From positions 2,356,001-2,420,000 of the forward strand of contig NZ_CP092915.1 in NCBI RefSeq assembly GCF_022557175.1: a stretch of DNA of 64,000 nucleotides, written 5' to 3'. This document shows positions 58,383 through 61,327 of the stretch, in pieces; the first letter of the stretch is position 1, and the number at the start of each line of letters is the position of its first letter. The notes under the pieces are model-generated. The model saw only the letters and a list, made by a program, of their open reading frames with translations, was not told the origin of the DNA and made no database searches. The translations under genes were made by a program, and so were the position numbers. The DNA is from Mycolicibacterium sp. YH-1. Lineage in GTDB: Bacteria > Actinomycetota > Actinomycetes > Mycobacteriales > Mycobacteriaceae.

Positions 58383-58512
58383 GACGGTGATTCGGCGCCA
58401 CGGCGGCGCGGGATGGATCGGTGTCGTGACGCAACGCTGACGTCGCCCGGCGCGTGAACGTGAGGATAAGTCGTCTGATCCGAACTTGGTCGTTCCGGTT
58501 GCAAGTATCTGT

Positions 58513-58532
58513 CGAGCACGTCAAAGTGCTCG
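58513..58532. promoter_or_regulatory. Dyad immediately before the permease ATG
   Basis: CGAGCAC-GTCAAA-GTGCTCG is a perfect 7+7 palindrome ending one base before ATG 58534. It can be a repressor site over a leaderless start or an RNA hairpin that hides the start codon. Confidence 0.6.
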
Positions 58533-58533
58533 C

Positions 58534-59928
58534 ATGACAGCGGCTGAACCCACTACCGACGGCACCTACGGGGACCGCATCGTCGCGGTCGAACCCGGCG
58601 GCAACGAATTCATTGCCGATGCCGACCGGCACGGGCGCCCCAGCCAGCTGCTGTGGACGTGGGCGTCACCCAACCTTGAGTTCGCCACGATCTTCCTGGG
58701 CGTGCTCGCGGTGGCCTACTACGGCATGACGTTCTGGCAGGCTGTCGCCGGCATCGTGGTGGGCGCAGGCCTGGGCACCCTGGCGCACTCTGTCCTGTCC
58801 GCCCGCGGTCCGGTGCACGGCGTGCCCCAGATGGTGCTCGGACGTCTGGCGTTCGGTTTCAAGGGCAACGCCGTGCCGTCCACGCTGATGTCGATCACCG
58901 CCGGAGTGGGCTGGTTCGCGACCAATAGCGTCAGCGGTGCGTTCGCGCTCTCGACGCTGTTCGGCGTCGGCCCGCTGCTGGCGCTGGTGGTGGTGGTTGT
59001 CGTCCAGACCGCGCTGGCCTTCTTCGGACACAACCTGGTGCAGGCGTTCGAGCGCCTGGCCTTCCCTGTGCTCGCGGTGATCTTCGCAATCGCCTCGGTG
59101 GTGATCCTGACCAAGGCCGACCTCGGTGCGCCTGCCGTCGACGGCGGCGTCGGCGGGATGGGTGGTTTTCTGCTGACCGTGGGAACGACCTTCGGCTATG
59201 TTGCCGGGTGGGCGCCCTACGCGGCCGACTTCAGCCGCTATCTGCCGCGCACCGTATCGCCGGTCCGCACCGGCGTTTTCGGATCCGCCGGCCTGTTCCT
59301 GGCGTGCACCGTCCTCGCGATCGTCGGTGCGGCCTCGGTGACCATCGCGACGGCCGGATCCGACAACCCGACCGACGCGTTCACCGGTTCGCTGCCCGGC
59401 TGGCTGGCCAGCGCCACGCTGTTGGCCATCGCGATCGGAGCCATCGCGGCCAACGCCATCAACGTCTACTCGGGTGCGATGGCGTTCGTCACCACCGGTG
59501 TCAAGCTGCCCGCGCATATCGCCCGCGCGCTGGCCACGGTGTTCTTCGGGGTCGCCGGCTTCCTGATCGCCTGGTGGGCGCTGGCCGACGCCGCTGCCAG
59601 CTACGAGGCGTTCCTGCTGCTCATCGCGTACTGGATCGGGCCATGGCTTGGTGTGGTTTTCGCCGACCAGTATCTGCGCCGCGGCCACCGGATCGACGGC
59701 TTCCTGTATGACCGCAGCTACACCAACTGGCCGGGCCTGGCGTCGTTCCTGATCGGCCTGATGGTCTCGGTGCTGCTGTTCTGCAATCAGGAGAGGTTCG
59801 TCGGCTACATCGTGCGAGCCGTACCGGAACTGGGGGACATCACCTTCTTCGTCGGTTTCGTGCTTGCCGCCGGCTGCTACCTTGTGTTCTGCCGAGCCAA
59901 GATCGAAGCGGAACGAGTTGCCTTGTGA
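58534..59928 (+). CDS. NCS1-type purine-cytosine permease
   Basis: The 464-residue transporter has about 12 transmembrane helices of the nucleobase:cation symporter-1 family: the start of the membrane domain WTWASPNLEFATIFLGVLAV, GYVAGWAPYAADFSRYLP and AINVYSGAMAFVTTGVKLP are family marks. It likely imports cytosine or another oxopurine/pyrimidine. Its stop overlaps the start of the deaminase (GTGA), which strongly suggests cytosine. The dyad before its ATG is the only candidate control site of the operon. Confidence 0.9.
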   Translation: MTAAEPTTDGTYGDRIVAVEPGGNEFIADADRHGRPSQLLWTWASPNLEFATIFLGVLAVAYYGMTFWQAVAGIVVGAGLGTLAHSVLSARGPVHGVPQMVLGRLAFGFKGNAVPSTLMSITAGVGWFATNSVSGAFALSTLFGVGPLLALVVVVVVQTALAFFGHNLVQAFERLAFPVLAVIFAIASVVILTKADLGAPAVDGGVGGMGGFLLTVGTTFGYVAGWAPYAADFSRYLPRTVSPVRTGVFGSAGLFLACTVLAIVGAASVTIATAGSDNPTDAFTGSLPGWLASATLLAIAIGAIAANAINVYSGAMAFVTTGVKLPAHIARALATVFFGVAGFLIAWWALADAAASYEAFLLLIAYWIGPWLGVVFADQYLRRGHRIDGFLYDRSYTNWPGLASFLIGLMVSVLLFCNQERFVGYIVRAVPELGDITFFVGFVLAAGCYLVFCRAKIEAERVAL

Positions 59929-60371
59929 CACCGGAGGAAATGCTTGAGGTTGCCGTGGCCGAAGCCCGAAAGGGGCTTGCGGAGGGCGGGATTCCGATCG
60001 GCGCTGCCTTGTTCCGCGCCGACGGCGTGCTGCTGGGCAGCGGCCACAACCGGCGGGTCCAGAACGACGACCCCTCCGTGCACGGTGAGACCGATGCGTT
60101 TCGCAACGCGGGCCGCCAGCGCGACTACCGCTCGACGGTGATGGTGACGACGCTCTCGCCGTGTTGGTACTGCAGCGGGCTGGTGCGGCAGTTCAACATC
60201 GGGGCCGTGGTGATCGGGGAGTCCAAGACGTTCACCGGTGGACATGACTGGCTGGCCGAGAACGGGGTCAGCATCACGGTGCTCGACGACCAGCGCTGCG
60301 TGAACATGATGGAGGAGTTCATCGCGGACCGGCCGGAACTGTGGAACGAGGACATAGGGGTAGCAGAGTGA
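59925..60371 (+). CDS. Fungal-type cytosine deaminase (CDA superfamily)
   Basis: The 148-residue zinc deaminase has HGETDA (H53, E55) and SPCWYC (C80, C83), the zinc site of the cytidine-deaminase fold. It reads like yeast Fcy1: GLAEGGIPIGAAL near the start, TTLSPC, and a C-terminal lid FIADRPELWNEDIG almost identical in pattern to Fcy1. It should convert cytosine to uracil. E. coli CodA is an unrelated fold, so this is a different solution for cytosine use. GTG overlaps the permease stop, and the stop overlaps the oxygenase start (GTGA). Confidence 0.9.
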   Translation: MTPEEMLEVAVAEARKGLAEGGIPIGAALFRADGVLLGSGHNRRVQNDDPSVHGETDAFRNAGRQRDYRSTVMVTTLSPCWYCSGLVRQFNIGAVVIGESKTFTGGHDWLAENGVSITVLDDQRCVNMMEEFIADRPELWNEDIGVAE

Positions 60372-61327
60372 GTGCGATTGCGACAGTGGACATGTCGCGT
60401 TGGTACGCCGGCGGTGCCGAGGCTGACGCACTGGCCGCCGAGGTGGACGAGGGGCTGCAGCGGGCGGGTTTCATCGTGGTCACCGGGCACGGTGTGGACG
60501 CGGACCTGGCGGCGCGCGTGCGAGCGGCGAGCCGGGAGTTCTTCGCGCGGCCCGATGAGGTCAAACAGCGCTACTCGGTGCCCGTCGGCGGGCACGGCTG
60601 GATCGGCCCGGGTGCCGAGGCGAACGCCTACGCCGAGGGAACCGAGACCCCGCCGGACCTCAAGGAGAGCTTCAGCCTGGGTGCCGAAACGGCCACCGGC
60701 GATCCGGAGGTGGACCGAATCTGGTTCGCGCCCAACGTCTGGCCGGCCGAGGTGCCGCAGCTGCGGCACCTCGTCGAGGAGTACACCGCGGCGATGCGCA
60801 CGATGTCCGATGATCTGCTGGCCCTGTTCGCGCGGGCACTGGGACTGTCCGAGAACCCCTTCACCGCACTGGCGAGCCGCCCCACCTGGACGATGAACAT
60901 CAACCACTACCCGCCGGTGAGTGTGGTCGGCGAACCCGAGCCGGGGCAGTTCCGGATCGGCCCGCACACCGATTTCGGCACGGTGACGGTGCTCGACCGT
61001 GAGCCGGGAGCAGGCGGTCTTCAGGTCTACTCCGAGGAGGCGGGCTGGGAGGACGCCCCGTGGCAGCCGGGCGCGCTGACGGTCAACATCGGCGACCTGC
61101 TGGAGCACTGGAGCGGGCGGCGCTGGCCGTCGGGCCGACATCGGGTGCTGCCACCGCAACCGCATGCCCCGGAGGAGGACCTGGTGTCGCTCGTCTACTT
61201 CTACGAGGCCAACCACGACGCGCTCGTGACCCCGCTGGAGCCGCCGGTCGGGCGGGTCTCGGGGCTGTCGCCGGTGACGACGGCCGACTTCATCAAGGAG
61301 CGGCTCGACGCCATCACCGTGGCCTGA
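60368..61327 (+). CDS. IPNS-like non-haem iron oxygenase in the cytosine operon
   Basis: The 319-residue double-stranded beta-helix oxygenase has the iron triad H200-x-D202 ... H258 (IGPHTDFGTVTVL, SGRHRVL). The RxS motif that usually binds 2-oxoglutarate reads LVS (DLVSLVYFYE), so the Arg anchor seems to be missing. The cofactor may bind differently or not be 2-oxoglutarate. DIOX_N-like N-terminus: AGFIVVTGHGVD. GTG 60368 overlaps the deaminase stop. In this operon the substrate is probably a pyrimidine or its degradation product; thymine 7-hydroxylase is the same superfamily. Substrate unproven. Confidence 0.8.
   Translation: MSAIATVDMSRWYAGGAEADALAAEVDEGLQRAGFIVVTGHGVDADLAARVRAASREFFARPDEVKQRYSVPVGGHGWIGPGAEANAYAEGTETPPDLKESFSLGAETATGDPEVDRIWFAPNVWPAEVPQLRHLVEEYTAAMRTMSDDLLALFARALGLSENPFTALASRPTWTMNINHYPPVSVVGEPEPGQFRIGPHTDFGTVTVLDREPGAGGLQVYSEEAGWEDAPWQPGALTVNIGDLLEHWSGRRWPSGRHRVLPPQPHAPEEDLVSLVYFYEANHDALVTPLEPPVGRVSGLSPVTTADFIKERLDAITVA

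Follow-up and report, generated by a model that had tools for sequence, protein, structure and literature searches.

The 64,000-nucleotide stretch of Mycolicibacterium sp. YH-1 analysed here (the window; contig NZ_CP092915.1, positions 2,356,001 to 2,420,000) carries three consecutive plus-strand genes for a nucleobase permease, an Fcy1-type deaminase and a non-haem iron oxygenase related to isopenicillin N synthase (IPNS) and thymine-7-hydroxylase (T7H). The permease opens at ATG 58534, the deaminase at GTG 59925 and the oxygenase at GTG 60368, and both gene junctions read GTGA, a 4-nt overlap of the start codon with the preceding stop. A preliminary description, made from the sequence, had proposed this three-gene set with 4-nt overlaps, which is borne out: all three frames are open at the stated coordinates.

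58534..59928, plus strand: NCS1-type nucleobase permease, 464 amino acids (PF02133, 121.4 bits against a cut-off of 23.5)
59925..60371, plus strand: Fcy1-type cytosine deaminase, 148 amino acids (PF00383; yeast cytosine deaminase structures, E 3e-32)
60368..61327, plus strand: Fe(II) oxygenase of the IPNS/T7H fold, R211/L272 clade, 319 amino acids
60998..61000, plus strand: codon of oxygenase Arg211, invariant in the clade and mostly Gln or Ala in canonical relatives
61181..61183, plus strand: codon of oxygenase Leu272, which occupies the arginine column of the RxS motif (T7H Arg286)
58493..58502, plus strand: TTCCGGTTGC box, its GGTTGC core beginning at -37 from the permease ATG; probably a promoter or operator element
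58513..58532, no strand: palindrome, perfect inverted repeat CGAGCAC-gtcaaa-GTGCTCG ahead of the permease ATG; probably incidental

None of the three proteins is named by an NCBIfam model: the permease, an NCS1 member by PF02133, matches five models but reaches the cut-off of none (42.3 versus 326 bits for the CodB model NF008241), the deaminase scores under the cut-off for TadA, and for the oxygenase there is no matching model. The deaminase presents the zinc site HxE...PCxxC as HGE and SPCWYC and ends in the lid WNEDIG (W-x-E-D-I-G), with an upstream Phe in KTF. Its best solved structures are those of yeast cytosine deaminase, in agreement with the Fcy1-like zinc and lid motifs reported initially. 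The parts of the trio are of known kinds, and the novelty is the addition of a T7H-like oxygenase to a codBA-like operon. No description of this gene combination or its pathway was found among the open-access papers that the literature searches listed.

The oxygenase active site and the R211/L272 signature

The oxygenase scores above the cut-offs of PF03171 and PF14226 (59.4 and 79.1 bits) and has the T7H fold with its HxD...H iron triad, formed by H200-x-D202 and H258. Fungal T7H, suggested earlier as the nearest precedent, is the closest solved structure, though tied with TraH, and ranks second in a profile search. The base-stacking residues of T7H, Phe292 and Tyr217, correspond to F278 and F203, Phe or Trp being allowed at these positions. 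T7H residue numbers were mapped from the alignment, in which the chain numbers exceed those of the paper by 2. Four 2-oxoglutarate contacts are retained as Tyr181, Ser274, Leu209 and Val260, but both arginines that bind the co-substrate in T7H are gone. Arg190 is replaced by Asn177, and the RxS motif reads LVS, with Leu272 in the column of Arg286, as had been noted for the missing RxS arginine. The protein was not filed as a T7H because of these two replacements.

In the T7H study (PMC4787775), Arg190 contacts the 2-oxoglutarate C1 carboxylate and the substrate, where it touches the C5 group, and its mutation drastically lowers activity; Arg286 binds the C5 carboxylate, and Leu223 is a further 2-oxoglutarate contact. 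The R286A variant turns over thymine with a kcat of 24.3 versus 25.0 per min and a Km of 649 versus 141 μM, while the kcat for 5-hydroxymethyluracil (5hmU) drops from 19.5 to 8.46 and that for 5-formyluracil (5fU) was not determined (PMC4787775). Loss of the RxS arginine is therefore by itself no argument against 2-oxoglutarate use, since R286A keeps its kcat for thymine and the clade of the window oxygenase has acquired a new invariant arginine, Arg211.

An alignment of 136 chosen and near-relative proteins, taken from the best 120 of 3003 and the best 120 of 1764 proteins, contains Arg211 with Leu272 in 134 rows, Arg211 with Met272 in one, and Gln211 with Arg272 in one canonical relative. 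A second alignment of 176 loci contains Arg211 and Leu272 in 161 loci, or 121 distinct sequences, as some loci overlap or share a genome. Its canonical rows keep the RxS arginine and have Gln, Ala, Val or a gap at column 211. Four apparent exceptions are gap shifts of R-x-S sequences, namely three Q/L rows (one G000 gene, three loci) and one Q/F row. Support for the R211/L272 clade is 100/99 in the tree against the canonical relatives used. Source databases label this large group "isopenicillin N synthase family".

Residue 211 sits where strand 206-210 ends, two positions beyond L209, the counterpart of T7H Leu223; residue 272 begins strand 272-279. In a double-stranded beta-helix, two such strands are neighbours. 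The invariance of Arg211, its closeness to a 2-oxoglutarate contact and its position on the strand beside Leu272 suggest that it took over the 2-oxoglutarate anchor from the RxS arginine. Arg257, before the distal His, was considered as a replacement and rejected, as it is not invariant: in the 134 L272 rows the position is taken by Glu (56 rows), Arg (53), Gln (17) or other residues (8), although the clade loci listed in the 176-locus alignment have Arg there.

Linkage of the three genes

A scan of genome contigs yielded 107 confirmed relatives of the oxygenase, and the analysis retained the best 80 (labels L, G, g and f denote loci, genomes, genera and families). A deaminase gene lies at most 22 nt upstream of the oxygenase in all 80, gap sizes being extrapolated from tblastn ends, and a permease match precedes it in 75, with no match in L050, L051, L052, L054 and L071. 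Presence of the permease means a tblastn match, which is without its first 114 residues in L056 and split over two frames in L059. Two of the 80 loci are from Kribbella; their gene order is the same and their oxygenase falls among those of Mycolicibacterium in the tree, which suggests that the set probably moved as one unit.

The oxygenase was found in 43 of 394 genomes of a class-wide draw at E<=1e-60, and surroundings were examined for 42 of these (only 1.5 kb either side in G038); the remaining one, G678, was judged by coordinates. An Fcy1-type deaminase stands directly upstream in 22 of the 43 (genera g1, g2, g7, g255 and g283), and 14 of the 42 genomes examined have a permease of the window type no more than 6 kb away. 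The pairing of deaminase and oxygenase is found again in Mycolicibacterium, Kribbella, Streptomyces (as inferred for f4/g7 from the near-identity of L231 to L105) and three further genera. The nucleobase-operon claim of the preliminary description, checked by this genome-neighbourhood search, is not refuted, in that the linkage is not confined to close relatives (Kribbella, genomes of families f94 and f91, Streptomyces). Neighbour genes were predicted by a simple reading-frame picker based on GC3. In L202, L203, L210 and L211 the module is preceded by a divergent PucR-type gene (in the first two by Pfam). None of these partners stands at the L218-L231 and L097 oxygenases (46-51% identity), or at the closer L201, L204 and L205 (58-62%); L217 (50.7%) has a permease.

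Two genomes, G622 (L207) and G630 (L213), pair the oxygenase with a permease in the absence of an Fcy1-type deaminase and carry a convergent amidohydrolase gene beyond the permease. The L213 protein is a CodA-type cytosine deaminase, scoring 454 against a cut-off of 438 in one NCBIfam subfamily model and 479 against 483 in the other; the copy in L207 shares 74% identity with it, and G678 has a CodA-type neighbour likewise, by coordinates. The CodA type thus takes the place of the Fcy1 type near the oxygenase in genera g337 and g310. Across the 43 genomes, 27 encode an Fcy1-type deaminase, and the CodA type (at least 50% identity) occurs in none of these 27 versus 5 of the 16 others (p 0.0045, kinship ignored). 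Adding a 36% CodA-like match in G719 makes this 1 of 27 (p 0.021, kinship again ignored). On these figures, the two unrelated cytosine deaminases tend to replace one another in oxygenase genomes.

The deaminase itself was found in 36 of 396 genomes of a phylum-wide draw; 31 loci were fetched, the remaining five being already known as oxygenase-linked. In 8 of the 31 (all family f53) its neighbour is upp and an NCS1 permease lies close to them; in 8 (four families) it stands beside a CodB-like permease, and in one beside the oxygenase. One representative upp and one representative CodB neighbour passed their NCBIfam cut-offs. HxE, PCxxC and W-x-E-D-I-G are common to 26 oxygenase-linked, 8 upp-linked and 8 CodB-linked aligned rows; the CodB-linked L165 and L167 (49-51% identity) have CDMC as in yeast, and the other aligned rows have CWYC. 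Cytosine to uracil, the reaction named initially, would be the likely one for the deaminase and is well supported by context, because of its CodA stand-in and its upp and CodB-like neighbours.

Several neighbourhoods differ in content. On a Rhodococcus qingshengii plasmid (L106, 5332-8873), a xanthine-permease-type NCS2 carrier is followed by a canonical RxS oxygenase and then an R211/L272 oxygenase (43%). A stand-alone condensation-domain protein adjoins the oxygenase in Streptomyces-type L094, L205 and L208 and, on the opposite strand, in Kribbella L059, with PF00668 found in the L094 and L059 neighbours. Both g310 genomes (L213, L217) carry, divergent from the oxygenase, an FAD oxidoreductase-GcvT fusion gene that is sarcosine/dimethylglycine-dehydrogenase-like. 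The Streptomyces-type pair at L094-L096 and the lone oxygenase at L205 lie close to what we take to be a UbiD/UbiA-like gene group, and L094-L096 also lie near presumably cytochrome c biogenesis-like genes. On the Pseudomonas sp. ADP plasmid pADP-1 (L103, 4974-6092), a distant Fcy1-like deaminase (39%) adjoins a short gene annotated as a ring-opening amidohydrolase.

Upstream region and flanking genes

An exact GGTTGC, the core of the TTCCGGTTGC box, occurs between -55 and -20 in 54 of 78 distinct upstream regions. Across the whole 70 nt upstream the exact matches number 59, and in 52 cases the position is -37 or -38 from the start codon; 1.9% of random 70-mers contain the hexamer. This fixed distance is suggestive of a promoter or operator near a possibly leaderless start. 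The palindrome between box and start codon, which had been described as shared by the three genes, is present, but its role as a control element is not supported: the near relatives L001-L004 have not preserved its left arm, and perfect repeats with arms of at least 7 nt and gaps of 3-9 nt number 57 in the 64-kb window, or 0.13 per 150 nt. The palindrome is rejected as an operator on these grounds; the nucleobase operon, cytosine, the T7H precedent and the missing RxS arginine remain from the preliminary description.

An imperfect dyad like ACACCGCGGTTCACGCCACGGTGT, unlike the window palindrome, recurs just 5' of the permease start in one subgroup (L015, L018-L022, L025, L026, L028, L030, L034, L035, L037 and L040), with perfect 10-nt arms in L021 and L030. 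Seven loci (L020, L022, L025, L026, L028, L035 and L037) have upstream genes that belong to one cluster; its L020 member is a GntR/FCD regulator and a candidate local repressor. In the window, the trio is flanked 5' by a molybdopterin sulfite-dehydrogenase-like gene on the opposite strand and 3' by rpiB and a gene for an Fpg/Nei-type glycosylase.

Proposed function, alternatives and known systems

We consider it an even call that the trio serves the utilisation of pyrimidine bases, as a codBA-like operon to which an oxidative step has been added. The permease would import cytosine or a close analogue, from which the zinc deaminase would release ammonia to give uracil or a 5-substituted uracil. 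The oxygenase would then oxidise a uracil-type base sandwiched by Phe203 and Phe278; its substrate is most likely uracil or a 5-substituted uracil. 2-Oxoglutarate would be the most likely co-substrate, its C5 carboxylate bound by Arg211, from the strand adjoining that of Leu272, rather than by the usual arginine of RxS. Import and deamination are predicted from homology and context, and oxidation from structure and linkage; we infer the transported substrate, the oxygenase substrate, the use of 2-oxoglutarate and the product. As a more tentative suggestion, the module could represent a new oxidative branch of actinobacterial pyrimidine metabolism in which the anchor has left its RxS place on strand VIII for Arg211 on strand III beside it.

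Several observations weigh against this proposal. The permease lies under every specific NCBIfam cut-off. Most of the residues with which T7H recognises its base are lost; Asn87, Glu122 and Asn294 of T7H are not retained in the oxygenase and Arg190 is Asn177, so base recognition differs from that of T7H. Arg211 could be a mere structural salt bridge with the invariant Glu270, which is the main alternative to an anchor. An adjacent Fcy1-type deaminase is absent in 21 of the 43 oxygenase genomes, and in 5 of the 27 with this deaminase it is located elsewhere in the genome. The Fcy1 type is missing altogether from 16 of the 43, and 11 of these 16 are also without a CodA relative at the threshold used; eight of the 11 belong to genus g295, whose oxygenases are unlinked and 49-50% identical. 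Conversely, 14 of the 31 deaminase loci have none of upp, a CodB-like permease or the oxygenase beside the deaminase. With its NCS2 carrier and second oxygenase, the L106 plasmid set may be a purine counterpart of the module, and distant members may act on purines. No ring-opening gene for pyrimidines is among the genes annotated beside the window trio. For a barbiturase route, in which uracil would be oxidised to barbiturate, PF09663 gave no match in the genome, but its control matched nowhere either, and the negative therefore does not show absence; RutA has only relatives below the cut-off (best 136 of 498 bits); and a hydantoinase above cut-off lies at 6.38 Mb beside a hydantoinase/carbamoylase-type amidase, with no link to the trio seen.

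Yeast cytosine deaminase accepts 5-methylcytosine. The window deaminase might accordingly be imagined to make thymine from 5-methylcytosine, the oxygenase then taking the 5-methyl group stepwise towards 5-carboxyuracil as in T7H. The rank of T7H in the structure and profile searches and the stacking pair F278/F203 favour this route, but we consider it unlikely, as the T7H residue that contacts the C5 group and cannot be mutated without drastic loss of activity is Asn177 here. An IPNS- or ACC oxidase-like enzyme that oxidises its own substrate at the iron without 2-oxoglutarate would account for the loss of both arginines. We find this similarly improbable, given the four retained 2-oxoglutarate contacts, the new invariant Arg211 and the thymine turnover of T7H R286A. 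Finally, the substrate could be another cyclic amidine, such as creatinine or a hydantoin. At least 2 of the 31 deaminase loci (L157, L159) have creatinase/prolidase-type M24 genes near the deaminase, L157 also has a gene above the creatininase cut-off, and the Kribbella trio L059 has a hydantoin racemase-type gene nearby. With such neighbours at a few loci, the deaminase may have a second substrate. For the trio itself this explanation seems very unlikely, as the eight upp-linked and eight CodB-like-linked deaminases share zinc ligands and lid residues with the oxygenase-linked ones.

To our knowledge, cytosine salvage operons as generally described end at uracil. Under the pyrimidine-base operon proposed here, a conserved base-oxygenase module with either of two unrelated cytosine deaminases would point to a missing pyrimidine reaction in soil actinobacteria. 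The R211/L272 exchange offers a sequence signature to separate a large anonymous oxygenase group and, if true as an anchor shift, would clearly exemplify the relocation of a 2-oxoglutarate anchor. Sensitivity to 5-fluorocytosine is predicted wherever the deaminase and upp co-occur, and upp is present in the window genome.

The E. coli codBA cytosine operon places an NCS1-family permease and a cytosine deaminase in one transcript. The window operon shares this pairing, but its permease is no CodB by NCBIfam (42 of 326 bits), its deaminase has the Fcy1 rather than the CodA fold, and its third gene encodes an oxygenase. With yeast Fcy1 (PDB 2o3k, 1ox7 and others) the deaminase shares HxE/PCxxC, the Asn of GHN, the Phe before the lid and the W-x-E-D-I-G end; it differs in CWYC for CEMC or CDMC, in WNED for WFED and in its place in a bacterial operon. 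The Neurospora crassa T7H (PDB 5c3p-5c3s; PMC4787775) has Arg286 and Arg190 where the window oxygenase has Leu272 and Asn177, has Gln where Arg211 is invariant, and carries the Asn87, Glu122 and Asn294 that the latter has not kept; it is fungal, whereas the window enzyme is bacterial and in an operon with a cytosine deaminase. The ancestral ethylene-forming enzyme (9ovh) and TropC (6xjj) show Arg in the RxS column and Gln in column 211 of the alignments, and these two, TraH (9ig5) and SpoC (9l50) act on other substrates.

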